This document shows positions 19,982-63,819 of a DNA stretch of 64,000 nt, piece by piece. The DNA comes from Effrenium voratum (Eukaryota; Sar; Dinophyceae; Suessiales; Symbiodiniaceae), in NCBI GenBank assembly GCA_963377175.1, contig CAUJNA010001713.1, positions 400,016 to 464,015 on the forward strand, in the 5' to 3' direction. A model generated the notes under the pieces. It had not been told where the DNA came from. It worked only from the letters and a program-made list of their open reading frames with translations, and ran no database searches. The translations under genes and the position numbers were made by a program. Each line of letters opens with the position of its first letter. Positions within the stretch are counted from its first letter, which is position 1.

Positions 19982-20192
19982 GCCTCAAAATCCTCCATTG
20001 TTTGGACGTCCCAAAAGTGAGCCTTCATTGTTGAGGGGGGGGGGCCTTTATCAATCAAGTGCCAACATTCGCGCTTCCGTTTTGTAATGTTGGACTCTGT
20101 TTAGTGTGACCCCCCCCCCCCCCTGGAACAGTGGAACCAGTCGGCGGGACTCTCTTTAGGGAGATCCTGGGGGATCTGGGAGGGACAGTACT

Positions 20193-20559: not shown

Positions 20560-20714
20560 GCTTGCAAATGGTTGAGATGAGCTGTCCCCTTAGCCATTTT
20601 CTTGCTCTTGCTTTTGCTTAGCTCCAGCCCGTGTTCACTTTCTGCTGGCTAAGTGTCTCAGCTGCATTTGTTTAGCTTGATTTTAGTTTAAATAGCCATC
20701 CCTCAGCCCAGGCC

Positions 20715-23180: not shown

Positions 23181-23208
23181 CTAAGGGAAACATGTCCAGG
23201 TTAAGCAG

Positions 23209-27086: not shown

Positions 27087-27429
27087 TGTCAAGAGACGGC
27101 AAGGTGACGTCCCGTGGGACGCTGTGCACCGAACCCTCAAGCTTTAATACCAACCACGTAGAAAGGTGTATACGGACGATGCCGTTATAGCCGAACCCGT
27201 GTAAACGTTGTAAGGAAGAAGGAATGATAGTTACACAGTAGTCCTGACAATGCAGCGCAAGCAGTTGTTTTGCTCTTGATGCCGATCACGGAGATGCAGT
27301 CACACATCAGATCTTGAACCTCAAATGTGTCTTGAGCCAAATGGCGATCAATGGAACTTGGGAAGCAACACCAACAAGGACCTCAGAACAGCTACCCAAT
27401 TTCGGCACGGGGCCTAGAGGGTTTTAACA
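27087..27429 (-). repeat. 3' LTR (343 bp)
   Basis: TG..CA-bounded repeat, a near copy of 44,820-45,172. On the minus strand it is the downstream LTR and follows a short purine-rich tract. Compared with the other LTR it lacks a 7-bp duplication beside the spliced-leader-like motif and about 3 further bases, and has several substitutions. Confidence 0.95.
27331..27345 (-). promoter_or_regulatory. Spliced-leader-like motif in the 3' LTR
   Basis: On the minus strand the LTR reads GCCATTTGGCTCAAG. The conserved dinoflagellate spliced leader ends GCCATTTTGGCTCAAG; the two differ by one T. It lies about 85 nt into the LTR in transcription sense. It is either a relic leader acquired when trans-spliced RNA was reverse transcribed or an element-borne leader mimic. 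Confidence 0.6.
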
Positions 27430-27440
27430 TCCCCCATTTG
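27430..27440 (-). promoter_or_regulatory. Putative polypurine tract (plus-strand primer)
   Basis: On the minus strand AAATGGGGGA abuts the 3' LTR directly. A purine run in this position is the expected primer for plus-strand DNA synthesis in LTR retroelements. Confidence 0.6.
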
Positions 27441-28054
27441 GGTCGCATTGTTCATCATGCGGTCCAAACACCACAAAACGTTCCACTGGCCACGGCTTCA
27501 ACTACGAAATCGTGTCGTGCATTCTTTTACTTGCTATCACTACACCGTTCATTCGCTGTGAAACATGCCGGGTTCGATTGTACGAAAAGTGAAACATTCA
27601 TCCTCCAATCGAAGCACACATCCATATGCAGGTGTATATAATACACTGTGGCCACTTCACTTGACCGCCAGTGAACATTCCAGCTGCCGCATTTGCGCAT
27701 CGCGCAGCTGTCATCCATAAATGGGTTGGCCACAAATGTCCACCATGCGCGCCCGCTTGTGATCGGTCTGCATATCTCCGGCAAAGAAACATCGGTGAGT
27801 AATCAATGCAAATCATAGCCATTCCAGATACCATGGACAATGCATAAATAATGAAAAGATATCATCTATAAGGTAATAGTTCCATCCATGAATATCCAGA
27901 GCGTCATAGTCGTCGGAATATGTAACCATGTACACATCCAATCATCTTGGACACATGAATATAAATCATGACATAAGTCGTTCCACCGAAACAGTGTCGA
28001 TGTGACGCAAGTAACAGATGGGGACTGGCCCACATCGTACCGCAATCATCATCT
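27441..28054 (-). other. 3' untranslated region of the retroelement
   Basis: About 0.6 kb between the last coding frame and the polypurine tract. No protein-like frame was seen on either strand; it is somewhat AT-richer than the coding part. Confidence 0.55.
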
Positions 28055-30703
28055 TCACGAAGCATACCTGTCCCCAATGGACAGCCTATGGGTACGTCGG
28101 CGGAACTCCTCGTCCAAGTTCTTCTGGGCTTCTCGTGCCCGGACACACTTCTTGTTGTAGTCCTCTGGCAACCAGTGCCCTTTCCGAAGGCACCAATCCA
28201 GCAGGGGTGTGTCGCATTTGTTCGGGTCGATGGCCGAGATGATGGCGCTCACGTTGACCGTGTAACCATTCTTGCCAAGGTTTAGGCCATCCCTCACGAA
28301 TGATATATACTTACAGTTGAAAGCTAGTGCAAAACATCTGAAAATAATATCACCCACCGGGTGCACTCGGTCCTTGACCAGGAGCTTCATTTCTTCCTTG
28401 GTGACATCGAGGATTCTCGCTGCAATCCACAGCTTGTAGAATGTGTATAGTCCCTCGCATTTGTTCACCATCATACGAATATATTCGTCACGCTCCTCAA
28501 CCGATCGGAAGGCTCTTGTCCGAACATTCTCCGATTGAGAAATCTTCGTTATTGTTGATGGCAAAAGTATACCTTCCTGATCATGCTCGGTGATGTTGGG
28601 GTACCTCTTGAAGTCATTGTGGTAAGGGCAGCCCGGCCTCCCTTCGAGTCCGGCATTCATCGTTCTCTCCTCACCACCTTCAAACATCCCCCACATCTTG
28701 GACAGCTGGAGTGCGATAAATCCTGCCATGTACTGAGCCTCACGCGGCTCGTCAAGGCAGATCGCCATCCGTTGGGAACTTATAATGTCCCGTGACGCCA
28801 GATCGGTGTCGCGGTAATGCCAACCGCCGTCTTCTTCTTCTGACGCATAGCCGGATGTATATCCTTGCGTGTCCATGTCGTCATCTTCTCCCGGAACTTC
28901 CTCCGCTTCGTCCTCATCCTCCTGTGCTGCCGCATCGTGGTTAGCTTCTTCCTGTGCACGCCTGGCATCTCCAGAGACGTTGGGGTTTTGGTTGTCCTCC
29001 TCGTCATCGGATTTGATGTGAATGTAGTATCTTCCGATGGAGATCAGTTGTGCCTCGCACTCCAGGCATAAGCAGAAGCAGGTGGGGATCGCGGTCGCAC
29101 ATGATGGACATATCCGGCACCTCAGTCCTTCCCATGTCTCATCATTCAGGATGACGACTTTGCTGACTTCGTCCCGGACCTCGTTGACCTGTGCGTTGAA
29201 CTCTTCCATCTTGTTGTTTCGATAGAGTTCGCAAGCACGATTAACCATGTCAACGATGTAGTGCAGATTATCGGCACCTGTCTCAGTCTCCGGCATCCTC
29301 TCGCTGATCTTTGCGACGTTCTGGAGGAACATCGCAGCCGACTCTTGGGAAGAGTTGACAAAGCCAGGGCAGATCTCGTTCTCCACACACTTCGAGTACG
29401 CCCTCTTGATGTCAGCGTACTCCAGGCGCTTCCCTCCGTTGCTTTTGCCAATCCAAATGGACTTGACCTCATAGAACGGGATCACGTCAAAGACCATGAA
29501 AGTCCCATTAGCCGCGACTCCAGCCCCATACCGCGCGAGGGTTGCACTGGGAATATAGATGATCGCAATCGGATCCCCTCTCCTCACGTTCCGTAGCGTT
29601 GTCTTCGTCGCCACGTTCATCTCATCCCATGGAGCAAATGCCCCGAAGTGCAGTGCTAGCCTGTTACCGCCATCGATTCCGCCGGGGACTAGCCCACAGC
29701 GTACGATGCTTGGCAGGTTTTCCACATACGTCACATGGAATGCTCCTCCGAGAGTATCACCCATTCTTGCGGAATACCTATTCGCCAGTGCGGATGAGCT
29801 CATGAATCCAAAATCACTGTGACCGGTTGTGACTCGGATGCACCAAGGTCTGTACCATCCATCGCATCTGTTGAACATCCTGTCGATGTCGTCCCGATCC
29901 ACGCCAGCTTCGTTCATTTCCTCCCTGGCTGCCCTCGTGTCGTTCGGGTTCATGATGCTCGGAAACCTTGCTGCCAGAACCTGGAATCTCGACTTCTTGC
30001 TTCCGGATTCCTGCCACTTGATCACCTCCATGATGCCCATGTATCGTTTCGCTCTCGAGGTGTTAGGTGGGAATATGTCGTTGTTTCGGTCGTCAATGAC
30101 AGCATCAATGTCGACCCATCCACCCTCGTCGCACCTGAAAGCACTTCCTCGGCAATTGCCGATCTTGTGTCGAAGGACTCTGCATAGGTCGTGAGATAGC
30201 TGGTTTGCTTGGTCCCTTGTAGTAAATACCGAGCGATCATCACCAATCCTGCATAGTGGAGCACCGTCGAAAGGAGCAATGCAGAAGTTGACACTCTTGC
30301 CAAGTTGCATCACGTCCACTTGCTCAAGGATTGCACCTTTGGGAAAGTACCTGGGGTCAACAATAGACGCATACGCCCATGGCAAGTGCACATCACTCAC
30401 GTCGCCATACTTCGGGATGTAGCACGGGATGGTGTCGCATCCCATCTCAAGCGTCTTCTTGAATGTCCTGCTGTCCCCGCACGGGTTGTAGGTGAGGTCG
30501 ACGCCACCACATTGTAGCTCTCCTCCCTCAGCCGTGTCAGCCATCTCCACCAAGTTAATGGTGTAGCTGTACATCTCAATTGTTTCTTTCCCTGCTTGTC
30601 CTCCTTTCTTTCTTTCCTTGGACGTTGATGAGGACGGTTCCTCCGTATCCCCCATGTCTTCATCAGATGAAACAGGGTCACTGCTGAGTAGCTCACGGAG
30701 CAC
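28055..30703 (-). CDS. Retroelement 3' ORF with Tpt1/KptA RNA 2'-phosphotransferase domain
   Basis: An 882-codon frame whose first usable codon is GTG; it probably continues the preceding frame after a slip. Residues about 165-425 match the Tpt1/KptA family block by block: LSHDLCRVLRH (169-179), EGGWVDIDAVI (about 193), SRFQVL, IRVTTGHSDFG (289-299), AFHVTYVENLPSIVRCGLVP (321-340), NRLALHF (347-353) and a final MVFDVIPFYEVKSIW. The Arg of LRH, the Arg/His of IRxxxGHS, the His of FHVT and the Arg of NRxxxH, which form the NAD+ and phosphate site in the family, are all present. Tpt1 removes the splice-junction 2'-phosphate from tRNA using NAD+. The rest holds a Cys-rich cluster (about 525-550), an acidic linker (about 570-625) and an unrecognised C-terminal domain. 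Its role in the element is unknown. Confidence 0.8.
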   Translation of the reverse strand: MLRELLSSDPVSSDEDMGDTEEPSSSTSKERKKGGQAGKETIEMYSYTINLVEMADTAEGGELQCGGVDLTYNPCGDSRTFKKTLEMGCDTIPCYIPKYGDVSDVHLPWAYASIVDPRYFPKGAILEQVDVMQLGKSVNFCIAPFDGAPLCRIGDDRSVFTTRDQANQLSHDLCRVLRHKIGNCRGSAFRCDEGGWVDIDAVIDDRNNDIFPPNTSRAKRYMGIMEVIKWQESGSKKSRFQVLAARFPSIMNPNDTRAAREEMNEAGVDRDDIDRMFNRCDGWYRPWCIRVTTGHSDFGFMSSSALANRYSARMGDTLGGAFHVTYVENLPSIVRCGLVPGGIDGGNRLALHFGAFAPWDEMNVATKTTLRNVRRGDPIAIIYIPSATLARYGAGVAANGTFMVFDVIPFYEVKSIWIGKSNGGKRLEYADIKRAYSKCVENEICPGFVNSSQESAAMFLQNVAKISERMPETETGADNLHYIVDMVNRACELYRNNKMEEFNAQVNEVRDEVSKVVILNDETWEGLRCRICPSCATAIPTCFCLCLECEAQLISIGRYYIHIKSDDEEDNQNPNVSGDARRAQEEANHDAAAQEDEDEAEEVPGEDDDMDTQGYTSGYASEEEDGGWHYRDTDLASRDIISSQRMAICLDEPREAQYMAGFIALQLSKMWGMFEGGEERTMNAGLEGRPGCPYHNDFKRYPNITEHDQEGILLPSTITKISQSENVRTRAFRSVEERDEYIRMMVNKCEGLYTFYKLWIAARILDVTKEEMKLLVKDRVHPVGDIIFRCFALAFNCKYISFVRDGLNLGKNGYTVNVSAIISAIDPNKCDTPLLDWCLRKGHWLPEDYNKKCVRAREAQKNLDEEFRRRTHRLSIGDRYAS

Positions 30704-31060
30704 TTCATCGCCTTCTCATTTCCAGCAGCCTCCTCAATGTCCTTGCAGTCGCCGTCGTGGGCCAGGTTCGCGCACTTCTTACAGATCCCCATATCTCCCA
30801 TGCACTTCTCCATTGACTCCAGGAATCCTAGTGCCGCTCTCCGCCCGTCGATCACACGCTGCTTCTTGTCTTCCTTCTCAGTATTGGCTTGAGAACTTCG
30901 ACTCGGGTCTGGTGCTTGACCAAGACCCTCATCTTCGCCCTCCGTGGCCTTTCTCTTGGAACCTTGTGCAGAGGGCTCGGTGATCAGGGATCGTGGATGT
31001 CTGGGCTTGACCTTGTTCATGATGTCAAGCACCTCCTTCGTGGGCACGCCGAGCTGTGCG
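30700..31060 (-). CDS. Coding bridge between pol and the Tpt1-like frame, shifted
   Basis: Between the end of pol sense (about 31,090-31,050) and the Tpt1-containing frame (from about 30,715), protein-like sequence continues in a third frame: TKEVLDIMNKVKPRHPRSLI, later SMEKCMGDMGICKKCANLA and GDCKDIEEAAGNEKA. The overlaps with both neighbours are open, so one longer polyprotein interrupted by two shifts of the same direction (each equivalent to -1) is likely. No clear slippery heptamer was seen at either junction, so indels are more likely than programmed frameshifting. A Cys-x2-Cys pair is present. Confidence 0.55.
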
Positions 31061-34000
31061 GACGGTTGTTCCGCTTTCTGTTCTGGCCCGTCGTGTGGGT
31101 CACGTTCCCAGCGAGGTGTCGCACTATTGACTGCTCGAACTCCCTCTTGATCTTCCATGCATCCTTCCACAGTGGCAGTTCGTGCTGGAAGTACGACATC
31201 ACCTCAAAGAATCCCAACACCATCTCGACGACGTCTCCCAAGGATTCCTCGTTCGTGGTTTGTCCCAGGAGTTCATACATCGTTCCTTGGTCGAGCACAC
31301 TCTTGATCCAGGACGAATATGCCACATTGCCAAGATCCTTGCCTATCAAGAAGATGGACATCCTCTCCTCGACTCCCTCGGAATTCTTGCACACGATCAC
31401 ATCCCGGGATGCGCACAATTGCTTCCCGTGACCGTTGTTGTAGAACTGTGCTGCTTGATCCACAGTCATGCTCACGAATCCCACGTGAGAAAGCTCCTTC
31501 TTCAGCCTTGAATACGCGAGCTCCCGTATGATCGTGATCATGGCCTGGATGTTGTTGACGTCCACCATGAGGTTTTGAAGGTCGGGGATTGCCACCACGC
31601 ATTCCGCGAAGAGGCGCGTGTACATTTTCTTCCCCTCGGTAGACATTGCAATACCGTTCGTGTCCGCGTTCCAGTTCGCGCAACAGTTCACGCAAGAAGA
31701 GGGATTGTACTTCGACTTCGGTCCGAGCACCTTCGACTTGCTCATCTGCATCTCCTTAGCGCAAAGTTCGCAGATAAACTTGCTGAGCTCCGTGACCGTA
31801 TACCATCGAAGACGTTGATCACCGGCATCGGCTTTCCCAAAAGCATCCTGCTCGCCGTGTCCTTCATCTTGTTGCTCTTGCTTCCTCTTCGACTGTGCAG
31901 TGAAGGTCGGCTTGTACTCGAATTTCACCTTCGATTCCTCCATGTTCTTCGGGATGTTGAATCGAAGGTCGGGCTCGTTTATGCACGTCCCCTCCAGCTC
32001 ACACACAAACGCGTTGCTTGGTGCGACCGCATCGATGGATTTCTCAATCAGCAGTCGTTTCAGGAGGAAATGTTGCAGGTTCGAGCTCCCAGGGATCTTG
32101 TAGTTCTTTCCTGTGAGCGCATGGACCACGCGCCACAGGCGATCGTTCTCGGTCACCAGCGCGCCTGCCGCCTTGCAGATCTCGCTAACCTTGTTGGCGA
32201 TCGTCCCCAAGTCCCCTCTTCCACCATGGAAAGCAACATCGCGATTCACGCACACCACGACCAGGCCCTTGCATGTGTTGACGAGGTCAGATATCGCCTT
32301 CTGCAGGGAGTCGATGATGGGGTTGGCGGTCACCTGCCATCCGCATCCTCTCATGCACACCCAATCATATAGCGACATCCAGATGTGCACCGACATTGGT
32401 GAGTCATCCATGTCTCGCCTCCGCCGTTCAGCGATGAGCTTATCCAGCTTCTGCAATCGGGAGATGATATTCAACGTGTCGTTGGGTGAGGAGACTTGCT
32501 CACTCGACCCATAGTATGATCTCTCCTCGATGTTTGTCCATCCCTGTTCGTTGACCATCATCTGGAAGGTCTTCGTGCTCCCTTTCGAGTTGACGGCCCT
32601 CAGGGGCCAATCCAGGACCAAGAAGCTCTTCTTGTGGATCATCATGTCGCGAATCGTCGCCTCGCCAATGGGGCTCCTCTTCTGCCTATTGATAATCCGG
32701 TTCAACTGTCCAGGTGCGTTGTCCGGGTTCTTCTCCGCCTGAATCAACGCGTTGATGGCTTTGGCGCCCGGAAGGCGTCCAGTAATCAAGCATCCTGTTT
32801 GGGCACACAAGAAAGCATACAGCTGTAGCCATGCCGCATTTCCCTTCCCAACATAGGAAAGAATGATCTTCTCCGCGCTGGTCTTCTCCTCGAAGTGCAA
32901 TAGCGAAGAGGTCAGGCATCTCAGCATACACTCCCAATACGTTGCGTTCTTGCCTTCTGCAAGACACGGCCCAAATACAGTTTGTATGATTGGGTACCCC
33001 GTATTGTTGTCTATGTTGAATTTCACATTGACAGTCGCGCCGCCCAAAGTGGTACCCCCTTCGAATGAAGTGTAGGTATCGTGTCCAGCAGTTGGATTGA
33101 TAATTACCCATCTGTCGTCGTCACCGCCAGAGTTCATTCGGAAAATGGAGTCGATGATCTCGTTGTCGATCTTGACAGCATCGCTGGCTTGCGACCCCCC
33201 ACTTGGAGCTCCCGGCTGGGGGACTGACCCACCAGCGGTTTGACTCCTTTGTCCGGAGCTTGATGCCGACTTCTGCTGTCGCTCCGTCTTCCGTGGCGGC
33301 TCCGTCTTCGATGAGCCCATCACCCACCATGTCGGCTCTTCCCCAACCACGAAATCCTCGGGGTACTTCTCCAGTTCCCTCTCGATTTCATGAATCGTGC
33401 AGTATTTATTCTGGAAGAAATCGATCATGACGTCCTTCTCGGCCTTCTTCTCGATCTCCTTCATCCAGCTTACCCACTTGCGCCGATCTTGGTTCTCAGC
33501 GGCCCTGTCAGCCGCGTGCGGTGCCAGACTGATGGAGTTGATGTTCATCGCAGGCAGCTTCGACTCATAGATCATATCGATGCACCACAGGAAATCCCTG
33601 GCGTACTCAATCTCCCGGTAGAGATCGTTCAGCTCCCTTTTGTCTGGACGGAAATAAGCTGTATACGACTGATCTTTGGAGTCCTTCTCACCGAGCAATG
33701 GCTGCAATCTCCTCATGATGAAAGAGACGCACATGAGCGAATTGACCGCTCCGATGCACGCGTCAGAGATGTCACTGGGGGTTGACCCACAGATCATCCA
33801 GCGCAATAGGTTGTTCTGGCTGGCATTCTCATCCCTCCTCAGTGCATATGCGAGGTTCTTCATCGATGCCTGCAGCTCATTCTGGTAGACCAACCCAAGG
33901 TCCCAATTCTTCTGGTAGTCGTCCTTGGAACCACGACCGTAGGAGTCGATCTTGGGAGCCTTGATCACGCTCAACGTGAACACTTTCCCCCAGTTTCGAT

Positions 34001-37000
34001 CTCTGTATCTTGCGATTCTCCGGTCGTGCCTCTCAAACTCTGCAGTTGTCTGGAACTCCTCAGAGCTCCTCCACCTTCTCGATGACGATGCCCTAGATGA
34101 CTCGTCGTTGATGAATTCTTTGTACACCTCCCCAACCGGGGTGTTCTGGTGGAATGCTGCTTTGAACGACCGTTCATCGTTGTCCTCGGCCACGCCTAGT
34201 GCGAGATCCCAGATGTTCGCGATTGATCTCAACATATCCGCCCCTTCCATGCAGTACTTGGTTACGTTGAGCAACTCGGGGTTCTTCGCCAGCATCGTTG
34301 CCTCACCGCAAAGTTGGTTCAGCGCCGACACGATCTTCTTTCCCTTGCTGCAGAATTCCCTCCATCCAAGCATACATTCGTCGGCAGAAAGCTGTCCGAA
34401 AACTTTGCTGATGAACTCTAAGGCAACCCTCATAGACTGCCCTTCACCTTTCATCATCCCGCGGCCCTTGGCAGAATAGTACGCTGAGTATGCATAAATA
34501 GCGGGGACGCCGATGTCCTCGATCCACTTCACGCACATACCCAGGTCGCTGCTCACCTCCATCCTCTTGGGCATCCTCTTGCCATCCTCGATGGCGTTCT
34601 TCACCAAATTTCCCAAGAAGATTGCTGCTTGCCTAGATTTCCCAACAGGCACGCAGAAGAACTCATTCGTGTTGACGACAGTCGGATTGGCAGTCATCTT
34701 GATGATATTCTCCAGAACCAGGAAAACCCAAAATAAGCAGCTGCAAATGAAGCCACGGAATTGTCCCAATGCGATCCCAGCTTCAGATTGTGGTGACGAA
34801 CTCGTCCAGCTCCTCCTTGAAGCCTGGGGTTCGGGACTGACCCAGCTCCCCGTATGCACCAGAGGTTCGGGACTGGCCCAGCACCTCGGTTGTGCAGTTG
34901 GGGTGGTGCAGATTTCGCTCGCAGTAGCTTGGTGCTTCCGCGATCTCCTTCGCGTAATGCAAGCAAGAGCGAGTTTCAACGGTGCCGGTTTGAGGCACCT
35001 TGCTCGAGCACGAAAACGGCGAAGGATCACACCCACAATTATAGACGTGTACAACTGGGTTTCTTTGGTTTCACGACCAGCACAAGGTCCATGCTCATGG
35101 TTTCCATTGCATTTCTTAGACAACGAGCCACCAAGTTCAAAGTTCCATGAGACAACTCTCCATGGTTTCTTGATTGGCATGGGTTTCTTTGCATATCTTT
35201 GTTTCAAGCCATAGCGACACCCATCAAACTCGTGACTAGTCCCATCATGCACAACCTCATGCAGTCTCTCATCCTTCCAATAATCACAACTTCCAGGCAA
35301 CTCAAACAAGATCGCAGCTCGTTTTGTCATGGCATGCCGTTTAATTTCAACGAACCGTTCAAACAATCTCCAAAATTCTCTTTGTTTGGCCTCGATTTTC
35401 TCTGCGGTGTCAATTCCGCGAGTCTTGTTGAGGCGTGCCCATGATGATCCCCCCGTGCAAGGCCCGGCGAAGAACAACAAATCGGAAGGTTTGGTAAGCA
35501 CATGTCTGGCGATTCTCCCCCCGTACTCGCTCAGTAAGTCATCAACCAGAGTTATGGTGACAACCTGCGGCCCGTCATGGCGGGCAAGAGCAGTGAACCA
35601 GTTACGTGGTTCGGAACATGCCATCAGCACGATAGGCCGAGCCAAGTCAACACTGTAAAGAGTGACGACTGTGCGAGTTCTCATACCAGGAAGCGAGACA
35701 TGAACAGGAGCGCGAAGCACACCACCGTCGTGTTTGACCATCGCGAGTTCAATACCCGGCGCTAACTGTGGCTTGTGCTTCACCGCAATGCGATACGGAA
35801 CAAAACAACGACCAGGGACAAGCTGCTCGTGATTGATATGCAGACAACGCATGAGCAATTTCAATCGGAGCAACGTTTCCAAAGCAAGGTCGTTAACACA
35901 CTTCAACTCTATGCGCTCGTTCGACAGTTCTTCAACAAATGCGGCCAGCACGGACTGCATGTCAACATCCCCGGACCCGACGTGAATTGGTCGTGGTCGT
36001 GGAGACCGTTCCCGCGCCGGTGCAGCGACCGGTACGGGATGAAACTGCCAAACTGCGCGTTCAACCCAACCATCAATTCGCACACATTGTAGCCCCGGGT
36101 CAACTCTATCCTCAACTTTGAGCCATGACCCATTCTTCAGAAACCAAGTGGAACGAAGCCACTTGCTCCCAAACGGTGTCATAACCGCGAGTGGAGGTTT
36201 CACACGCATCAATCTGGGTCCCTTGGCAACAACAACCGGATCATGTCCTTCATGCTCATGCAATCCCTCTTTGGATGTTAATCCAGACCACCATAGGTCC
36301 GGGGGCATGATCGGTATGTGTGTGTACGGAAATGTTGGAACTCCGTCAACTGTCCCCGAAGCGGTCTGCATGGTCCCCTTTATGGGATCACACGTGGGTG
36401 TGAGCGCCTTGAGGGTATCCGGGTCAGACAGCAAGCTCGGGTCAAGTAGACCAATCTGCAAACATGCATGTTTCCATTTGCGCCCATCATTGAACGCCTT
36501 GGTGTAAATATCGGCCGCCATCCTGTCGGTGACCTCATACGCCAAGTACATGTAATCACGTGTGAACATCTCATGCATCCACGAAATGCTAACACCATGG
36601 CTTCTCTCAAGGTGGCGCATCGTGGGGTTTCTCCCCGATCGCACGACACCGATCATAGCCTTGTTATCGTCATAGAACACAAAGTTCGGTGACTTCTTGA
36701 GAATCCGCTCTACCAGCTTGAGAGCGGGCATACCCATCGATCTCATGGCAACATCGGCCGCAACAATCTCGGCCTCGGGAGTGGAGTGACTCACACAACC
36801 CTGTCTTTTAGAGCTGCCAGACAACGGAAACCGGGTATTAGGCCCTTGTATATTCAAGTGTCCACCGGAGGTGGAACGCAGCGAGTCAATGCATCCCGCA
36901 AAGTCAGCGTCCGCATACAAGGCCAAGTGCACATCGTCCATAGGGTCTCCAACCCAACCGACCATGCGCCAATGTTTGGTATGATGCACATAGCACATCA

Positions 37001-40000
37001 AGTGATGCAAACCCCGATCATCGGAGTCAGTCCACCTATGCACGTTCCGTGCTAGGCGATTCACTTGCCGCAACAAATCGAAGCGAGCAATCCGCGCACC
37101 GTACAGCAACTTCATCAGTACGCTAGCGGCATGCGGAGCAAGGTGTCCACGCACGGGCTCCTTCATGGCCAACTCAGGAGTCCCTCCCCGTTGGTCCGGC
37201 ACTGTGGCAGAACCGTCGGTGGGCACAAGATTGTTACACCAATTGCACACGACTGACGGCCCCTCTCTGGCAGGCTTCCGTGAGACGTGATTCTTTGTTT
37301 CTTCATGCAACTCAGGGGTGACAACCTTATTCAACTTCACGTCGCCCGCCACTTCAAGATAGCGGTCGACACAGGAACGTAGGAACTGTTCCATGTCATA
37401 GGTCACCGTTGTTACTCGGTGTCCGTTCCCGAGAGTGACGTTTCCCTTGCTTTGATTGCAACCAAGGTACATGTCAAGTCCAGTCTCGGGCTCAATCTTC
37501 AAACGTGTACGCAACATGCTCCACCCTTGGGCAAGGTTCTTCTGCGGCCCTGCCATTTTGAAGTCGTCGACATACACAACCAGAACAAGCTGGAGCTTTT
37601 CATGAATGTACACTGAAGGCCATTCTTCGCCGATGGGCTCAAAACCAACGGCACGCACCGACTCATCGCAGTGCTGCTCCCAAAATGTTCCCGCATCTGG
37701 GTGTCCGTACAGCGCCTTCCTCAACGGGACGACTGGTCTTCTGTACTTATCCCATTTGCATTCACTTGGCACGGCCTCCGGTGGCAATTCAATCCAACAC
37801 GGCGTGCCTCTCAAGGTGGCCTGTATATACGCCTGAACAGCGTCGGCCATCTGCACATCCCAGCCATCATGACAACCCAGAAAATCCGCCCAACGCGAGG
37901 CTTCAAATGAAGCAGGGGAGTTCCCCAAATCTTGAAACATCGCAGCTTCAAAGCTTTGGTTCTTCACTTGGTTCCCCAGCAACACGCCTCTACCCTTGAA
38001 CTTCCTCTTAGGATCACCAACAGGCAATTGTGAGTGCTTTTCAACGCAAATGCCATGTGCGCGAGCCATGTGTATTTCCTCCCCCTTCGCTTTTGCTTCT
38101 CTGGCTACAGCGTCATATTCGCGCACCGCGCCAAGATCGAAGACCCCCTGGTCGATTAATCCCGACCACTCTTTCTTCATTGATGCCAATGCATCAGGGT
38201 TGGTCAACATCTCTTTCCGGCCTACCGGCCTGGATACTAAAGCGTCGAAGAATCGTACAACTTTCACAGCTTTCTCTCTGTGCTGTATTCGCTCAGAAGT
38301 CACGCACGGCATCGATGGGTACTTCTTGGCTTCACCGTCTTCGCCTATCGCAGGCATTGCGAGTGGCACTTTTCCAGAAACTATCTCAGCAGACTCCTCC
38401 CATTCATACCAGGTGAGGTCCGTCGATTCGTCGACCGATGGATCCGTCCCCGATGCTGTCTCAGCTTCGTCTTTATGACTCTCCATGACTGATGCAACCG
38501 CCTTCGTCCAGTTTGGAGTCGACTTTGATCGCTCCTCAGACTTGAACTTCCAGGCATAAATTACCACCAGACACTCAAATTCTTTCTCAAGCTGAACGTT
38601 TCGTCTCATGACGTCTTGGGACTGTTTGGAATCCATGAGAACAACCACCCCGTCGACAGGATTAACAACAATCCTGACCCATTCAAGCTCAGCCAAGTGC
38701 TTCCCATCCATTGGGTTCTTGATCTTTGATATGTTCTTCCGCAATCCCCAATTGTACTGCCATTCTACTCCACCCCAGCGGTTCCGAAGCATCGCTCGAA
38801 TTCTCTTACCACCGGGCATCTGTAATGTCCGTGCCTCTGCCGGCGCGGAAATCTCAGACTCTTTACTCTTGGGATCTTCCTCTTTCTTTTTGCCACCGCC
38901 CTTCACCTCGGCCTTCTCTTCCTTGGTGTAATATTTACTCATCATCTTCCATTCTTCAGGAGTGAACTCTGGAGGTCTCGATGTCTTCATTAGCCTGAAT
39001 CCATCCTTCCCGACAGGATACGGTCTTCCGGCCTTGTCGATTTTAACCTCCTTGCCATCGTCGTTGACGTACGTGATGCCATCCCCAGGTAGTCCAACTG
39101 ACACGTGTGGAAGGTCGGACTTCGCAACCTTCTCATCGCCCTTAGGGTGTCCATCTCCTTTCCCTTTTGAAGAGCTCGGTCTAGCATCTTCTTCTCCTGC
39201 ATGATCCCCCCGATCTCCGGCGATTACCTCCGGGCCATCGTCGAGCAGTAGACCAGCGATCTGATCGACTTCATCGTCAAGCAGTCGCTTCTCGTCACTC
39301 TGCAGCAATTCAGGCTCGTAGTCCTCATCCTCGATCAGGCGGTCACGTGCATCCAGACCGATTGCATCGATAGACATCTCTATTCCTTCCAAAGTCTCGT
39401 TGGCAACCTTGTACTTCTGTTGTATTGGGAATGTCAGAGGAGATTTCAGGATCATCCTCTCCGTCTGATGTGGCATTCTCAACCGAGGTGGAACCTTTGC
39501 CTTCTTGATGTTCAGCTCTGCACCCGCAAATGCAGTAAGTGCCCAAGCACGATACTTGTTTGCCCAATGCATGCCAGTGCTCAACACATATCCAGCAAAT
39601 ATACCAGTTTCCCCTCTCGGCTCGAACTTCTCCCTCTTTCCCCCTCGTGCTTCACTCGGCTTGAAGTCCACTAGCGCACCAAAAGGTATCTTCTCGCCCT
39701 TGAACTCCTCGCCATGCAGCCTCATCCATGCACTCGATCCGTTCACCTCTTCGATGTTCATGAGATGACACAGAGTGGTGATGGCTTGCACCCAATAACA
39801 CGTGGGTAGACCGGCATGTACTAGACAAGCCGAAGTCTGGTCAATGATGAATTGATTTGTTCTTTCAGCAAGGGAATTGTTCTGCGGCCGTCCAGGCAGC
39901 GATAGGTCGTGGTTCAGCTTCAGCTCCACGCACGCATTGATCAGTTCCGGGCCGTCATCCGAATATACCTGCTTGATTTTCCTCCTCCCGCAGAAGTGCT

Positions 40001-41879
40001 TGATAGCCCTGACGACTGAGTCAGTGTCTCTTCTCGCGGTGGGATAAGCCATGATAATTCCGGTATATATGTCCCGGATGATGAGCGCATACCTGCCTTC
40101 CACTTCATGATCTCCTGATGCCGTCACGAAGTCGAACGTCACCAGGTCACCGAACGTCTTCACTTCTCTTTTGAATGCTCCCGTTCGCGATCTGAAGTGT
40201 CTCATCTTTGCCTTGACGCATGATTCGCAGAAGGGATTTCGGTATCTGTGTGTAAGCAAATGAGCTATGGAATTGGCGTCCTTCTTGAGGACTCCCACTT
40301 TCCTCTTTATTGATGATCCTTCGTACACGTCTACTTCGATTCCGGCATCTGGATCATCTTCATCAACCTCTTCCTCGTGAGCTTCGGCATCACCATGTCG
40401 ATGCGGGACTGACCCAACATCTACAGGTATTTCCTCAGCCACGGGAGGCGGACGTACCGGACCGGCTCCTCCGGGTGGCCCGAAGTCGAATGCCCCGTCG
40501 TGGTGTTCGCCCTCGGCCTCTGCGGACTCACCGACAGCGGCGGGTGTGACGTCGTTCTCATCGTCACCTCCCTGATCTGCCTCGTCGTTCGTTACCATCG
40601 CCAATACTTCCGAAAAGTGCTCCTTGAGGTCGTCTATCGTAGGGCGATGCCTGTTACTCCGAAGTTTACCATCACTCACTAGGTACGGGATGTCGTCCTT
40701 GACCTGCAAGTGCACGAATCCCTGCTTTGGCGTAACCATGAAAGGTAGTTTACCAGGCATCCAGTGAAATGCATAACCCATCTTCATGCATCTCCTCCCC
40801 ACTGACAATACCGTGGGTGTCTCATCCAATACATGCGGCTCGACAGTCTCGTCCAACTCGTCCACGACTATCTTGGCCACATCAGATGTGGAAGTGGAAC
40901 CATTCGCGGTCTGGAACACGATCTCGTCGTCATCTTTCACGATGTCGACACCCAGGCTCTTCGCCTTGGCTCTTCCAATGAGATCATGACCACATCCGGT
41001 GTCCATCAACCATTTCACCCGTTTGCTGATGCACGTTGACATGGCGAAAACGTTCTTCGGCATACCATGCTGTTTCTTCCAGTCGACAGCCGATTCCTTG
41101 ATCTCGTCCTTGTTCCGATCATACTCGAACATTATGCTGCTCTCCTTGGTCACCGGGAAGTAGTGCTTCTTATATATATCATCCACCACTTCTCTCAGTA
41201 TCTTCGCACGTATCAATGATCGTTGGACTTGATAGGCTGATAATTCACGATGATCACTGCTTTTGAACTTCTTCTCGTCGACGTACACGTACTGATAAGG
41301 CTCATTCTCATTGTCCTCATAACCGTACCATTCTCCTTTTCGTTCCCATTGCCTTCTCTCGTCTTCGAGGTAGGTGATCTCCCCATTCTCGTCGACGTCG
41401 AGCACTTCCTTGAACCACACCATTTTCTCGGGGATCTCGGACTCGCCAGACCATCTCGATGATTCGCTCATCGCGTCGTCATCGTGCTCGTGGTAGACAG
41501 TCTCGGCTTCGTCCGGTTCGACCTGATCAACGTCCTTCTTGAAGCTTACCTTCCCTGCAGGAGCCGATTGCTTCAGGACTATCGCGGGCATTGCGATGGC
41601 CCTCCTCGCAATGGCAGGCGCTGCGGCTTTGGCGGGTAGCCTTCGACTTGGCTTGCGCCTTGTCATTTGACGTTGCTGGAGCTGAATTGTTCTTGATGAG
41701 CTCGTGCCTGTACTTACAAGCGCTTCCTTTATCGCACTTCCCCTTCTGAAACGCGAAGCATGCTCCATCATCTCTCTTTGGTGACGATGATCTGGATTTG
41801 GATTTGCCCTTTCCTTTCCCCTTGGACATACTCTCCAACTTGTGCTCCGTCTTCTTGCTGTGGGAAAAAGTGCATTCAT
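31017..41879 (-). CDS. Copia Pol polyprotein with a very long C-terminal extension
   Basis: 3,620 codons without a stop. In order: aspartic protease around WLMDTGCGHDLI (about 290); integrase (about 530-760) with the HHCC zinc site ending FCESCVKAK and the D,D,E residues in FDFVT, SDDGPEL and NNSLAERTN; reverse transcriptase (about 1,290-1,500) with VVYVDDFKMAG at about 1,438; RNase H (about 1,650-1,795) with YADADFAG, STPEAE and YDDNKA. This order defines Copia. After RNase H come about 1,800 residues: a Rossmann-like, methyltransferase-like segment (LLFFAGPCTGGSSWARLN, about 2,135; ILFELPGSCDYW, about 2,190), a hydrophobic stretch (FICSCLFWVFLVL, about 2,375), then about 1,200 unrecognised residues with Cys pairs. 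It overlaps gag by 353 nt in the +1 frame, so frameshifting is the likely route of expression; an ATG at 41,879 is the alternative. Confidence 0.9.
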   Translation of the reverse strand: MNALFPTARRRSTSWRVCPRGKERANPNPDHRHQREMMEHASRFRRGSAIKEALVSTGTSSSRTIQLQQRQMTRRKPSRRLPAKAAAPAIARRAIAMPAIVLKQSAPAGKVSFKKDVDQVEPDEAETVYHEHDDDAMSESSRWSGESEIPEKMVWFKEVLDVDENGEITYLEDERRQWERKGEWYGYEDNENEPYQYVYVDEKKFKSSDHRELSAYQVQRSLIRAKILREVVDDIYKKHYFPVTKESSIMFEYDRNKDEIKESAVDWKKQHGMPKNVFAMSTCISKRVKWLMDTGCGHDLIGRAKAKSLGVDIVKDDDEIVFQTANGSTSTSDVAKIVVDELDETVEPHVLDETPTVLSVGRRCMKMGYAFHWMPGKLPFMVTPKQGFVHLQVKDDIPYLVSDGKLRSNRHRPTIDDLKEHFSEVLAMVTNDEADQGGDDENDVTPAAVGESAEAEGEHHDGAFDFGPPGGAGPVRPPPVAEEIPVDVGSVPHRHGDAEAHEEEVDEDDPDAGIEVDVYEGSSIKRKVGVLKKDANSIAHLLTHRYRNPFCESCVKAKMRHFRSRTGAFKREVKTFGDLVTFDFVTASGDHEVEGRYALIIRDIYTGIIMAYPTARRDTDSVVRAIKHFCGRRKIKQVYSDDGPELINACVELKLNHDLSLPGRPQNNSLAERTNQFIIDQTSACLVHAGLPTCYWVQAITTLCHLMNIEEVNGSSAWMRLHGEEFKGEKIPFGALVDFKPSEARGGKREKFEPRGETGIFAGYVLSTGMHWANKYRAWALTAFAGAELNIKKAKVPPRLRMPHQTERMILKSPLTFPIQQKYKVANETLEGIEMSIDAIGLDARDRLIEDEDYEPELLQSDEKRLLDDEVDQIAGLLLDDGPEVIAGDRGDHAGEEDARPSSSKGKGDGHPKGDEKVAKSDLPHVSVGLPGDGITYVNDDGKEVKIDKAGRPYPVGKDGFRLMKTSRPPEFTPEEWKMMSKYYTKEEKAEVKGGGKKKEEDPKSKESEISAPAEARTLQMPGGKRIRAMLRNRWGGVEWQYNWGLRKNISKIKNPMDGKHLAELEWVRIVVNPVDGVVVLMDSKQSQDVMRRNVQLEKEFECLVVIYAWKFKSEERSKSTPNWTKAVASVMESHKDEAETASGTDPSVDESTDLTWYEWEESAEIVSGKVPLAMPAIGEDGEAKKYPSMPCVTSERIQHREKAVKVVRFFDALVSRPVGRKEMLTNPDALASMKKEWSGLIDQGVFDLGAVREYDAVAREAKAKGEEIHMARAHGICVEKHSQLPVGDPKRKFKGRGVLLGNQVKNQSFEAAMFQDLGNSPASFEASRWADFLGCHDGWDVQMADAVQAYIQATLRGTPCWIELPPEAVPSECKWDKYRRPVVPLRKALYGHPDAGTFWEQHCDESVRAVGFEPIGEEWPSVYIHEKLQLVLVVYVDDFKMAGPQKNLAQGWSMLRTRLKIEPETGLDMYLGCNQSKGNVTLGNGHRVTTVTYDMEQFLRSCVDRYLEVAGDVKLNKVVTPELHEETKNHVSRKPAREGPSVVCNWCNNLVPTDGSATVPDQRGGTPELAMKEPVRGHLAPHAASVLMKLLYGARIARFDLLRQVNRLARNVHRWTDSDDRGLHHLMCYVHHTKHWRMVGWVGDPMDDVHLALYADADFAGCIDSLRSTSGGHLNIQGPNTRFPLSGSSKRQGCVSHSTPEAEIVAADVAMRSMGMPALKLVERILKKSPNFVFYDDNKAMIGVVRSGRNPTMRHLERSHGVSISWMHEMFTRDYMYLAYEVTDRMAADIYTKAFNDGRKWKHACLQIGLLDPSLLSDPDTLKALTPTCDPIKGTMQTASGTVDGVPTFPYTHIPIMPPDLWWSGLTSKEGLHEHEGHDPVVVAKGPRLMRVKPPLAVMTPFGSKWLRSTWFLKNGSWLKVEDRVDPGLQCVRIDGWVERAVWQFHPVPVAAPARERSPRPRPIHVGSGDVDMQSVLAAFVEELSNERIELKCVNDLALETLLRLKLLMRCLHINHEQLVPGRCFVPYRIAVKHKPQLAPGIELAMVKHDGGVLRAPVHVSLPGMRTRTVVTLYSVDLARPIVLMACSEPRNWFTALARHDGPQVVTITLVDDLLSEYGGRIARHVLTKPSDLLFFAGPCTGGSSWARLNKTRGIDTAEKIEAKQREFWRLFERFVEIKRHAMTKRAAILFELPGSCDYWKDERLHEVVHDGTSHEFDGCRYGLKQRYAKKPMPIKKPWRVVSWNFELGGSLSKKCNGNHEHGPCAGRETKETQLYTSIIVGVILRRFRARARCLKPAPLKLALACITRRRSRKHQATASEICTTPTAQPRCWASPEPLVHTGSWVSPEPQASRRSWTSSSPQSEAGIALGQFRGFICSCLFWVFLVLENIIKMTANPTVVNTNEFFCVPVGKSRQAAIFLGNLVKNAIEDGKRMPKRMEVSSDLGMCVKWIEDIGVPAIYAYSAYYSAKGRGMMKGEGQSMRVALEFISKVFGQLSADECMLGWREFCSKGKKIVSALNQLCGEATMLAKNPELLNVTKYCMEGADMLRSIANIWDLALGVAEDNDERSFKAAFHQNTPVGEVYKEFINDESSRASSSRRWRSSEEFQTTAEFERHDRRIARYRDRNWGKVFTLSVIKAPKIDSYGRGSKDDYQKNWDLGLVYQNELQASMKNLAYALRRDENASQNNLLRWMICGSTPSDISDACIGAVNSLMCVSFIMRRLQPLLGEKDSKDQSYTAYFRPDKRELNDLYREIEYARDFLWCIDMIYESKLPAMNINSISLAPHAADRAAENQDRRKWVSWMKEIEKKAEKDVMIDFFQNKYCTIHEIERELEKYPEDFVVGEEPTWWVMGSSKTEPPRKTERQQKSASSSGQRSQTAGGSVPQPGAPSGGSQASDAVKIDNEIIDSIFRMNSGGDDDRWVIINPTAGHDTYTSFEGGTTLGGATVNVKFNIDNNTGYPIIQTVFGPCLAEGKNATYWECMLRCLTSSLLHFEEKTSAEKIILSYVGKGNAAWLQLYAFLCAQTGCLITGRLPGAKAINALIQAEKNPDNAPGQLNRIINRQKRSPIGEATIRDMMIHKKSFLVLDWPLRAVNSKGSTKTFQMMVNEQGWTNIEERSYYGSSEQVSSPNDTLNIISRLQKLDKLIAERRRRDMDDSPMSVHIWMSLYDWVCMRGCGWQVTANPIIDSLQKAISDLVNTCKGLVVVCVNRDVAFHGGRGDLGTIANKVSEICKAAGALVTENDRLWRVVHALTGKNYKIPGSSNLQHFLLKRLLIEKSIDAVAPSNAFVCELEGTCINEPDLRFNIPKNMEESKVKFEYKPTFTAQSKRKQEQQDEGHGEQDAFGKADAGDQRLRWYTVTELSKFICELCAKEMQMSKSKVLGPKSKYNPSSCVNCCANWNADTNGIAMSTEGKKMYTRLFAECVVAIPDLQNLMVDVNNIQAMITIIRELAYSRLKKELSHVGFVSMTVDQAAQFYNNGHGKQLCASRDVIVCKNSEGVEERMSIFLIGKDLGNVAYSSWIKSVLDQGTMYELLGQTTNEESLGDVVEMVLGFFEVMSYFQHELPLWKDAWKIKREFEQSIVRHLAGNVTHTTGQNRKRNNRPHSSACPRRRCLTS

Positions 41880-44721
41880 TCCCTTTCACGCACCCCTTCG
41901 CCGATTTGAAGTGGTACCAGCAGGGGTTATCCTTGCTTCCGCCCGGACTCTTGCCTCTGTCGCTGGCACCGTCGGACTTGCCGTTCTTGCCAGCGTGGCC
42001 CTTTGCCTTGGCTTTTGGGAGCACAGGAGCGGCATCAGGTCCACCGGGTTTCCCCTTTCTGCCCTTGCCACCCTGGTTCTCCTGTTTGCCAGTTGCTGGA
42101 GCCGCATCCTTCCCGCCTGACTTCATCATCGACTTGACCGATTTCTCCTTCATGTCGAGCATCAGGTCTTCCCGATCTGCCTTGATCTGATAGTCGATCA
42201 ACGCCAATAAGAATTCATACGTCTTCTGAGGATGCTTGTCCGGTAGTCTATGGTAGGCATTGAGGCCGAACTCCATCTTCTTGCTCCCTTTGATCTTCCT
42301 GTAAAGGATGTCTCTGAGAGCCAGCTTACTGGGTCTGTCCTCGCTCCTCATCTTCAGCAGCAAATCATACCATTTGTTCCTGAACATGACCAAGTTCTTG
42401 TCGCCAGGAAAGTCAAGGTTGAATAGATGCTCGATGTGGTAGACAAGATCCGTTCTATCGGAAGTTCTGAATGATTGCATAACTAATGCCACCAACTCTC
42501 GTCCCTTCACGATCACCCCTTGTTGATGTCGTAGTTCAGAGTGTCGTGTAGCATCGAGGTATACGTCCTTGGCTTCGTCAGGTGCTTGTTTCAGCATGTT
42601 CTGCATGCCCATGGCCATCTTAATATCTATCGTAGCGAATCTGTCGCCACCTGAATCGCTAAGCAAATCCAGGTCTGGGTTCAACCCAAGAGCCTGCTCC
42701 AGCCATTTCGTCCATGCGTCGGTATCTGGATCTGCACATGCGCTCAGAACATTCATCAGCAGTTGCATCTTCCAGGTGTCAAGTTGATGGATCTTTGGCC
42801 AGGCCGGAATAGATACTCTCTCGGCCTCTTTCCTCGAGATTCTCGGTCGATCATTCTTGATCTCTCGGTTATCTCTCGATCTCCTTCGTCTCCTCCGTGT
42901 CCGATCGTCTTCTTCCTCTTCTTCTTCCTCGTCTTCCTCATCTCCTTCGTCGTCGTCATCCTCATCCTCATCATCGGGTGGATCATCCGGAGGTCCTCCT
43001 CCGCCACCAGCGAGGCTCAACTGACGTCGACCCGCTCCCTGCCCATTCCCATTGGGCGGGAATCCACCGTAATCCAATGGGGGCGTAGTACCGTTGTTTC
43101 CCCCTCCATCACCACCACCAGTCGTAGTAGTGGATTGTGGGACATGCCCAACAACCCCTTGCATCTGGGATAGGTGTACATCGATCATTGGATCACCGAA
43201 AGACGGAAAGAGGATCGAACCTGGCATCAGCGACGAATTAGGGATTTGATTTGAAGACGATGACGGGATTAACCCAGCCACCTTCTTGTCTATCCTACTT
43301 GAATTAGCCTGGGTTCCTCCCTCAGCGCGTTTCACTACTGCTCGTTCACGATGTCCATCTTTGCTGCTGGAGGCTTCCTGCATCTCCAGCTTCTTGTGTG
43401 CACGTAGTTCCTCGTTGTCAGCATCGAGTTGGCGTACAAAACTCTCTTCTTGCTTGAGCGTCGCCTCTCTTTCTTTCAGTTGTCCCTGAAGCTCATGCAT
43501 CTCCTCGAGGTACTCATCGTACATTCCCTTAGCTGTCAATCTCCAGTACTCAGCCTCCTTCGACTTCTCGTCCATCGTGCACCGTTCCTCTTGTTTCTCT
43601 TCTTTGACCTGGGCTAACTCCAAGATCGCATCCTGACGATGACCACCTTCGACAGCAATCATCTGGTCCTTCATCGACACGTCGGACTCATACTGTTTGA
43701 CGATCTCTTCCTTTTCGCGAAGCAAGCAATCTGCTCTCTTCGATTCCTGTTCCGCAAATACTGTAACGTCATTCAGCCTCGCCATCAGCTGTTCCCTGGA
43801 GTCCTCCAAAGAGTACGTCTCGGGGCGCTTGACGAGTGCATGCTCCAACTGTGATTTCAGACTTTGGACCATCTCCTCCTCGTTGAACTTCTCGATAGAT
43901 GTAGAAGATTCTATGCCTCTGATCTGTTGCTGATAAACTGATATCTGTTGTGAAGCCTCACGGTGTATCTGATTTGCACGTATAGCTGATTCCTGCGCGG
44001 CCGACTTCTCGCTTGCCATGTAGGATTTCATCAATGCAATCTCCCGCTTCTGCTCCATGATAGTTCCTTCAGCTTGCCTCATCTGTTGCATTATAATATT
44101 CGACTCCATGTCTTTCTTCTCCCCGTACTGAAATGCGTTCATTTCCACCTTGCGCATCTGTTGGGCTTCTTCCTCAAACTTGCGCCATGCCTCAGCCATG
44201 TGGTGTTGGTGGTGACTCACTAGATGTCCCGACTGCTTGCTGGCAATCTCGCATCGTCTTTCCAGCTCCTGGATCCGGATGGTGCTTCCATAGTCTTCTT
44301 GGTTAAGATTCGCCATTGCTGCCGACATCTCATCAAGTGTCTTCTGATATTCCCCGATCTCCACCTCCATCTTATTCTTCTCTTTGATCACGGCGCGAAA
44401 ATCTGCACTGGTGGGTGATTTTGACCTCCCACCCTTCGATGTCGATCTCACGCCCTTCTGCGACGTCCGTGGTGTCGCAGGCGAAGATGATGATCTTCTC
44501 GGTGGGGATTCTCTTTTCTTCGACTCCTGATGAACATCGATCTGCTTCCATGATCTTGTGGGAGTAGATATGTCGCTGAATAGCGCGGAACCTCCGCTCC
44601 CAGGTTCATCCTGTGAATCTGCAACCATATCCATCACCGCAGGAAGAGCCATCAATCCATTGGATCCCTCTGAGCTGCTGTTCCCAAAAGTTGCAGTACT
44701 TGGGCTCGCCGAAGACGCCAT
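41527..44721 (-). CDS. Gag-like capsid/nucleocapsid protein with CCCH fingers
   Basis: 1,064 codons from the ATG at 44,721, the first frame after the 5' LTR. Residues about 1-90 are low-complexity and Ser/Lys-rich. About 90-470 are a long coiled coil. About 540-610 are Gly/Pro-rich with an acidic run. About 655-880 form a helical region consistent with a Copia capsid (PAWPKIHQLDTWKMQLLMNV, later LVYHIEHLFNLDFPGDK). The C-terminus has two CCCH-type zinc fingers: C-x9-C-x5-C-x3-H at about 934 and C-x7-C-x5-C-x3-H at about 987. Copia Gag normally has a CCHC knuckle, so RNA or DNA packaging may use a different finger here. It is much longer than usual Copia Gag. The last 353 nt overlap pol, which lies in the +1 frame. 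Confidence 0.82.
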   Translation of the reverse strand: MASSASPSTATFGNSSSEGSNGLMALPAVMDMVADSQDEPGSGGSALFSDISTPTRSWKQIDVHQESKKRESPPRRSSSSPATPRTSQKGVRSTSKGGRSKSPTSADFRAVIKEKNKMEVEIGEYQKTLDEMSAAMANLNQEDYGSTIRIQELERRCEIASKQSGHLVSHHQHHMAEAWRKFEEEAQQMRKVEMNAFQYGEKKDMESNIIMQQMRQAEGTIMEQKREIALMKSYMASEKSAAQESAIRANQIHREASQQISVYQQQIRGIESSTSIEKFNEEEMVQSLKSQLEHALVKRPETYSLEDSREQLMARLNDVTVFAEQESKRADCLLREKEEIVKQYESDVSMKDQMIAVEGGHRQDAILELAQVKEEKQEERCTMDEKSKEAEYWRLTAKGMYDEYLEEMHELQGQLKEREATLKQEESFVRQLDADNEELRAHKKLEMQEASSSKDGHRERAVVKRAEGGTQANSSRIDKKVAGLIPSSSSNQIPNSSLMPGSILFPSFGDPMIDVHLSQMQGVVGHVPQSTTTTGGGDGGGNNGTTPPLDYGGFPPNGNGQGAGRRQLSLAGGGGGPPDDPPDDEDEDDDDEGDEEDEEEEEEEDDRTRRRRRRSRDNREIKNDRPRISRKEAERVSIPAWPKIHQLDTWKMQLLMNVLSACADPDTDAWTKWLEQALGLNPDLDLLSDSGGDRFATIDIKMAMGMQNMLKQAPDEAKDVYLDATRHSELRHQQGVIVKGRELVALVMQSFRTSDRTDLVYHIEHLFNLDFPGDKNLVMFRNKWYDLLLKMRSEDRPSKLALRDILYRKIKGSKKMEFGLNAYHRLPDKHPQKTYEFLLALIDYQIKADREDLMLDMKEKSVKSMMKSGGKDAAPATGKQENQGGKGRKGKPGGPDAAPVLPKAKAKGHAGKNGKSDGASDRGKSPGGSKDNPCWYHFKSAKGCVKGNECTFSHSKKTEHKLESMSKGKGKGKSKSRSSSPKRDDGACFAFQKGKCDKGSACKYRHELIKNNSAPATSNDKAQAKSKATRQSRSACHCEEGHRNARDSPEAIGSCREGKLQEGR

Positions 44722-44819
44722 TGTACTGTGTGGGTTGTCGTTCCTTTATTGTCCCTGTACCCGCAATAAACCAGCTGTCTCCCAGTCCAGTGTAGAGCTT
44801 GCCGATACGGCTGATAACC
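44722..44819 (-). promoter_or_regulatory. Retroelement leader with possible primer-binding site
   Basis: 98 nt between the 5' LTR and the gag ATG. Directly next to the LTR the minus strand reads GGTTATCAGCCGTATCGG. This loosely resembles the initiator-tRNA primer site of many Copia elements (TGGTATCAGAGC), but the match is imperfect and the primer is uncertain. Confidence 0.4.
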
Positions 44820-63672: not shown

Positions 63673-63703
<31 letters not shown>

Positions 63704-63788
63704 CATACATACATACATACAGTACATACATTACATTACATTACATTACATTACATTACATTACATTACATTACATACATACATTACA

Positions 63789-63819
<31 letters not shown>

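Follow-up and report, generated by a model that had tools for sequence, protein, structure and literature searches.

DNA methyltransferases (DNMTs) are carried in Symbiodinium by the elements SymbioLINE-Dnmt and SymbioDIRS-Dnmt3, which belong to the long interspersed nuclear elements (LINEs) and the DIRS elements, respectively; these DNMT-bearing elements occur in hundreds of copies, and Ka/Ks is below 0.2 for most of them (De Mendoza et al., 2018; PMC5890265). The RNA 2'-phosphotransferase Tpt1/KptA has been recorded in a few eukaryotic viruses, including Bodo saltans virus, and within the polyproteins of two RNA viruses, the Beihai picorna-like virus and the Botrylloides leachii nidovirus (PMC9503650), as well as in the baculoviruses (nucleopolyhedroviruses) of sawflies (PMC3230848). 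The DNMT-bearing Symbiodinium retrotransposons and the KptA-bearing viral polyproteins are the nearest precedents of the locus described here: a Copia-type long terminal repeat (LTR) retrotransposon, named Copia A, which carries a Tpt1/KptA domain and lies in a stretch of 64,000 nucleotides (the window) of the genome of the dinoflagellate Effrenium voratum (assembly GCA_963377175.1, contig CAUJNA010001713.1, positions 400,016 to 464,015). As in the case of the DNMTs, a nucleic-acid enzyme has been repeatedly captured by different classes of dinoflagellate retrotransposons (PMC5890265), whereas the enzyme is Tpt1 here and its carriers are Copia elements and LINEs; Copia elements are without a DNMT domain according to PMC5890265. 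As with viral KptA, which in the RNA viruses is contained in a polyprotein, Tpt1 is borne by a selfish element, whereas the carriers in that case are viruses, and the word "retrotransposon" is absent from the main text of PMC9503650. Heat-activated Ty1-copia elements have been described in S. microadriaticum (PMC11453091). In a literature search by title and abstract, which left subscription papers mostly outside, no Tpt1/KptA, phosphotransferase or ADP-ribosyltransferase (ART) in a retrotransposon or transposon was found among the matches listed; an earlier model-made reading of this DNA (the sequence-only reading) had likewise known of no retrotransposon described with this enzyme.

The window domain matches PF01885 with 33.9 bits (cut-off 26, E 4.1e-8), and is unmatched by the NCBIfam equivalog models. 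In the alignments, the Arg-His-Arg-Arg tetrad is intact (R182, H183, R243, and R352): residues R182, H183, K241, and R243 correspond to R18, H19, K66, and R68 of CthTpt1, and H327, T329, R352, and R378/R379 to H101, T103, R121, and R139/R140. The roles of these residues in CthTpt1 (those of the tetrad and the Lys, and the contacts that His101, Thr103, and Arg139/Arg140 make with NAD) are given in PMC6333775. The predicted structure, which has the two-lobe fold consisting of a winged helix and an ART lobe, matches solved Tpt1 enzymes best. The predicted fold and nine ligand-contact residues are thus shared with the cellular enzymes (CthTpt1 and human TRPT1; PMC6333775), unlike which the domain is part of a large retroelement coding region and has about 40 extra residues inserted between KxRF and IRxxxGHS. 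It is 24-29% identical to prokaryotic sequences and 23-28% identical to those from viral contigs in the same alignment. Neither the window Tpt1 nor that of the LINEs described below matched viral contigs when used as a query; a three-sequence Tpt1 profile matched six contigs, the KptA frame being of ordinary size in five and part of a longer open frame in one. By its residues and modeled fold, the domain is a true member of the Tpt1/KptA family whose active site is intact, catalysis itself being predicted. The sequence-only reading, which had recognized a Tpt1/KptA domain with conserved Arg and His residues and had proposed that a predicted structure be compared with Tpt1, is borne out in this respect; the uses that it had suggested, in repairing the element's own RNA or primer or in counter-defense, are candidate roles. 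We propose, with a probability of about one in two, that the domain is an active NAD+-dependent Tpt1 which acts in the ribonucleoprotein of the element, where it would clear 2'-phosphates for reverse transcription.

The main features are as follows (positions in the window; the element is read on the minus strand).
27087..45172, minus strand: Copia-type LTR retrotransposon Copia A, 18,086 bp, delimited by the LTR pair, the 5-bp duplication AGAGG, and the rejoined flanks
44820..45172, minus strand: 5' LTR (TGTTAAAACC...CTCTTGACA), from self-comparison, both termini placed
27087..27429, minus strand: 3' LTR, from self-comparison, termini placed
31020..41885, minus strand: pol frame, 3622 codons, from Pfam and motif positions
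28058..30715, minus strand: Tpt1-carrying frame, the last one of the element, 886 codons, in a reading frame differing from that of pol in the window copy
29552..30208, minus strand: Tpt1/KptA domain (PF01885), residues 170-388 of that frame

The LTRs start with TG and end with CA in the orientation of the element, and the target duplication AGAGG is present at either side. When the flanks (26623-27086 and 45178-45577) are rejoined without the element, they form a single open frame of 288 codons, the first part of which matches a Ulp1-like (C48) peptidase; the insertion therefore took place inside an open frame. It can be considered young because the alignment of the two LTRs shows 7 substitutions over 343 columns, plus 11 gap columns. 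The pol frame shows, in the order typical of Copia, an aspartic protease (residues 288-336; 21.6 bits, below the Pfam cut-off of 24.3), integrase motifs (residues about 553-680; rve 22.8 bits, below the cut-off of 32.6, the region matching integrases in the PDB to E 2e-4), a reverse transcriptase (RT; RVT_2, residues 1295-1483, 34.9 bits, above the cut-off of 31.6, with YVDD at 1438), and an RNase H, recognized by eye alone from a motif at residue 1658. Of these four, RVT_2 is the sole domain above its Pfam cut-off. With its LTR pair, AGAGG duplication, and domain order, the element is a Ty1/copia-type LTR retrotransposon, as the sequence-only reading had held.

All the comparisons between families were made within this one genome of 1.16 Gb. 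When the window Tpt1 was used as the query, the best 146 of 1843 candidates, the window included, were all 98-100% identical to it. Only one of these 146 places has a stop inside Tpt1, decayed copies being under-represented because the scored list holds the best 146 of 1843. Eight of the 146 lie within open frames of more than 5000 codons, and the two copies with the longest open frame have RT in phase with Tpt1: in other Copia A copies, pol and Tpt1 are one frame. For 20 copies chosen to span the list, both the Tpt1 region and the site where RT would be expected were extracted, and RT was found upstream of Tpt1 in all 20 (full-length and open in 18, interrupted in one, and ending with the sampled stretch in one). 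The domain is therefore present in the other copies, its absence from which the sequence-only reading had named as grounds for abandoning the idea. An artefact due to a host gene lying beside the element was ruled out, since the two LTRs enclose the Tpt1 frame and 20/20 copies checked have RT upstream of it. Copia A is a young, high-copy Copia retrotransposon. Among its copies, the single-step variants of Tpt1 comprise 50 that are synonymous and 15 that are not (of 21 rows, among which is the window, 19 were used after one carrying an indel and another carrying a stop were dropped; three multi-step variants were omitted), giving a ratio of non-synonymous to synonymous polymorphism (pN/pS) of 0.09, which is biased downward because the copies were ranked by protein similarity; in the RT of the same copies, the numbers are 19 and 11, and the ratio is 0.16 (19 rows, window included). 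The nucleotide diversity among largely the same copies is about twofold higher in Tpt1 (1.7%) than in RT (0.8%), possibly as the result of recombination or gene conversion.

A PF01885 profile search of the genome gave 558 candidates, the best 150 of which, all above the cut-off, were scored; three of them contain a stop, and the window copy is not among them. Class membership was verified for individually extracted loci (numbered with the prefix L), and the row counts per class were made by eye. By eye, 78 of the 150 rows have profile limits of 10-176, which are those of three examples (L014, L015, and L028) of a second Copia family, Copia B, whose RT is 43-46% and RNase H part 37% identical to those of the window. 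The gene order in Copia B is RT, RNase H, a frame with an unnamed domain 26-29% identical to that of Copia A (28.5% identity, E 7e-21, between window 34956-35708 and L015:2349-3149), and then the Tpt1 frame, which has 1114 codons in L015 and L028. Upstream pieces of L015 contain a gag bearing CCCH fingers, as well as a repeat of 143 bp, which is 99.3% identical to the copy at the other end. The Tpt1 domains of the two families are 24-25% identical, and a cysteine-rich segment follows Tpt1 in both and is similar in both. One old capture of Tpt1, rather than two, appears to be favored because the preceding domain, the following cysteine-rich segment, and the primer-binding site described below are common to Copia A and Copia B.

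In Copia B, the His of the tetrad, which adjoins the first tetrad Arg and is invariant otherwise, is replaced by Gly in all six rows covering the site (L014, L015, L028, L127, L128, and L129), and L127 has in addition Glu in place of the Gly of the GH motif; five places had been taken as possible Copia B, among which L126 turned out to belong to the helicase family described below and the gapped L129 is outside the pair counts. Because of this replacement, the Copia B enzyme may do something else, and may have changed its reaction. Tpt1 enzymes are known to ADP-ribosylate 5'-phosphorylated RNA (PMC9458441), and the domain might accordingly cap 5'-phosphorylated RNA or cDNA ends, or modify another target, thus shielding the nucleic acid of the element. 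The loss of the tetrad His from a domain whose other contacts are kept under selection fits this idea, whereas the whole tetrad is present in Copia A and in the aligned LINE domains, as the canonical reaction expects, and we regard it as improbable.

LINEs account by eye for 31 of the 150 rows, at 136-167 bits. In one of them (L010), Tpt1 lies within a first open reading frame (ORF1) of 2062 codons, and the ORF downstream of it matches Exo_endo_phos and RVT_1 in Pfam. An endonuclease is present downstream of ORF1 in eight of the nine main-type 10-kb loci (L009-L012, L020, and L023-L025); in the ninth (L019), it does not follow, and the ORF1 match ends at residue 1889. The LINE RT was shown by Pfam in one main-type locus. 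Two diverged LINEs carry Tpt1 at the matching place of ORF1: L026, in which the RT is 35-41% and the endonuclease 31% identical to the main type, RVT_1 being below the cut-off, and L021, in which the endonuclease is 33% identical. Tpt1 also adjoins a putative helicase in a multi-copy frame, which may be that of a gene family or of an element (L018:5435 to L104, minus strand, with 2251 codons in L018 plus L104; L017:1523-7396), where SF1/UPF1-like helicase motifs were seen by eye and the AAA_30 match is weak; RT was not recognized in the frames scanned, the flanks being listed for frames only. The best Pfam score for PF01885 is that of L013, which may be the host's own Tpt1 gene. The domains of Copia A, Copia B, the LINEs, the helicase family, and L013 are 21-34% identical to one another, and in a tree of these domains the branches are long and the relations among groups are not resolved.

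It would seem from the presence of Tpt1 in related elements as well as in an unrelated element type that RNA repair is of benefit to mobile elements. Its use by LTR and non-LTR elements alike would also be explained if Tpt1 served against host defense, by repairing tRNA or element RNA cut by RNases or by stripping an anti-element 2'-phosphate mark, as proposed for viral KptA, and the occurrence of KptA in sawfly baculoviruses, Bodo saltans virus, and RNA-virus polyproteins (PMC9503650, PMC3230848) speaks in favor of such a role. On the other hand, no ligase or other end-healing partner was recognized in the element with Pfam. We also know of no host defense of this kind in this lineage, and take the explanation to be plausible in outline and on balance unlikely.

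In the LINEs, Tpt1 has a median dN/dS of 0.044 at a median dS of 0.54 (75 of the 88 differing pairs, dS >0.05), based on 14 rows representing 13 loci (L007 and L009 are the same locus; the LINEs L024 and L025 were left out) taken from the top of a profile-ranked list, which entails a milder bias than that affecting pN/pS in Copia A. Three other pieces of ORF1 gave dN/dS values of 0.18, 0.35, and 0.13 (11-13 rows), and the Tpt1 of the helicase family gave 0.18 (4 rows, 5 of 6 pairs). In Copia B, dN is 0.087 at a saturated dS of about 2.5 between L015 and L127, and 0.012 at a dS of 0.178 between L015 and L128. Judging from these codon comparisons, Tpt1 is kept by purifying selection in the LINEs and in Copia B. 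A chance capture of Tpt1, kept merely through the youth of the copies, would be in keeping with the small mean difference (1.7%) between the sampled Copia A copies in Tpt1 and with the few differences between the LTRs of the window insertion, yet it would hardly account for the conservation of most of the active-site residues (the His of Copia B excepted) in two Copia families with RTs as different as those of A and B, for the retention of Tpt1 in a LINE as diverged as L026, or for the dN/dS and dN values of the LINEs and Copia B, and we give it very little credence.

Directly after the 5' LTR lies the following feature.
44806..44819, minus strand: primer-binding site (PBS) GGTTATCAGCCGTA, 14 nt

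The PBS GGTTATCAGCCGTA is identical in 7/7 other Copia A copies examined and in one Copia B element. The LTRs of Copia A and Copia B are dissimilar (E 0.24 for their longest match, of 9 nt), and the Copia B sequence diverges from that of Copia A after the 14 PBS bases. The complement of the PBS, TACGG-CTGATAA-CC, is laid out like an anticodon arm, from the 5' part through the second base of the 3' strand, and the PBS would pair with the internal anticodon arm of a candidate primer tRNA. Drosophila copia reportedly primes with a 5' half of tRNA-iMet, using the same PBS register (Kikuchi, 1986). Copia A resembles Drosophila copia and other internally primed Copia elements in its gene order, 5-bp duplication, and anticodon-arm PBS, unlike Drosophila copia being 18 kb long and carrying an unnamed domain, about 1200 residues without a Pfam match, and Tpt1 after RNase H. 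Internal tRNA PBSs also occur in other Copia elements, such as FunCo1 (PMC5445492).

These observations bear on the idea that Tpt1 serves in primer healing only: the primer of Copia would be the 5' half of a tRNA severed within its anticodon arm, from whose 3' end Tpt1 would remove the phosphate, giving the 3'-OH that RT needs. The PBS shared by families with unrelated LTRs, its anticodon-arm layout and register, and the internal PBSs of other Copia elements are all in its favor, as is the removal of terminal 2'- and 3'-phosphates reported for a subset of Tpt1 enzymes (title cited in PMC9458441). The LINEs, on the contrary, carry Tpt1 without tRNA priming. In addition, the cut in Drosophila may be made by an enzyme leaving a 3'-OH, and the anticodon would read GAU, which is unusual for a nuclear tRNA. 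Healing of the primer as the sole role of the domain is rather doubtful.

Under the broader proposal of an active Tpt1 serving reverse transcription, the element's Tpt1 would be recruited into its ribonucleoprotein as an NAD+-dependent RNA 2'-phosphotransferase, where it would free the RNA that the element needs, namely the template and, in Copia, also the 3' end of the cleaved-tRNA primer, of 2'-phosphates or of ends arising from 2',3'-cyclic phosphates. The end left by the cleavage of a tRNA may, according to the nuclease, bear a 2'- or 3'-phosphate, which makes it useless to RT. The cleared ends would let reverse transcription start or proceed, and phosphates left by the attack of host RNases would be removed likewise. 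This broader role is favored over primer healing because the LINEs with Tpt1 need no tRNA primer, and the idea of primer repair gains some support from the anticodon-arm-like PBS. That RNA end-healing has long been part of replication in at least two element classes of this lineage, acting on the tRNA-half primer in Copia and on damaged template in the LINEs, is a tentative extension that we consider rather unlikely as it stands. As to ribozymes as a source of cyclic phosphates, Rfam gave no match in the window element; in 11 other loci, its matches were to microRNA families (nine) and to a snoRNA (one), none of which reached the gathering threshold.

Several points weigh against the proposal of an active Tpt1 clearing 2'-phosphates. 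LINEs use no tRNA primer, and opening a cyclic phosphate takes more than Tpt1. Tpt1 is not in the pol reading frame in the window copy, and Pfam revealed neither an RNA ligase nor a kinase or 2H phosphoesterase in the element. The Copia A copies were found through Tpt1, copies without it being outside the sample, and the downward bias of the pN/pS of Copia A and the lost His of Copia B, both described above, count on the same side.

The remaining features of Copia A are listed below.
41530..44745, minus strand: gag-like frame, 1072 codons, with weak CCCH zinc-finger matches, below the cut-off
34956..35708, minus strand: unnamed domain, pol residues about 2073-2295, with the motif GPCTGGSSW, common to Copia B
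29057..29119, minus strand: cysteine-rich segment after Tpt1, zinc-ribbon-like by eye, from sequence inspection
27430..27445, minus strand: short purine-rich stretch just before the 3' LTR, a possible polypurine tract

The unnamed domain had no match in a Pfam search, and its single-sequence structure model (predicted local distance difference test score 31.6) was too poor for use. By eye, it has a PC motif resembling motif IV of the cytosine methyltransferases, for which the Pfam scan of pol gave no match. This domain is separated from the Tpt1 frame by about 1200 residues that match nothing in Pfam, where the cysteine-rich segment has no convincing match either. Elsewhere in the window, tandem arrays are located at 20146-20624 and 21673-23181, with units of 62 bp and about 264 bp, and a low-complexity repeat array with long open frames in three phases occupies positions 63240-64000.

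With these elements, RNA 2'-phosphate chemistry is added to the few enzyme activities that retrotransposons have captured, in high copy, in two element classes, and under selection. To our knowledge, Tpt1 is without a clear role in many of the organisms possessing it. An element retaining Tpt1 points to a substrate that is important in reverse transcription or in the conflict between host and element, and the PBS common to Copia A and Copia B gives a specific, checkable primer hypothesis. If the tentative extension to RNA end-healing in at least two element classes held, retrotransposition would be directly NAD+-dependent.

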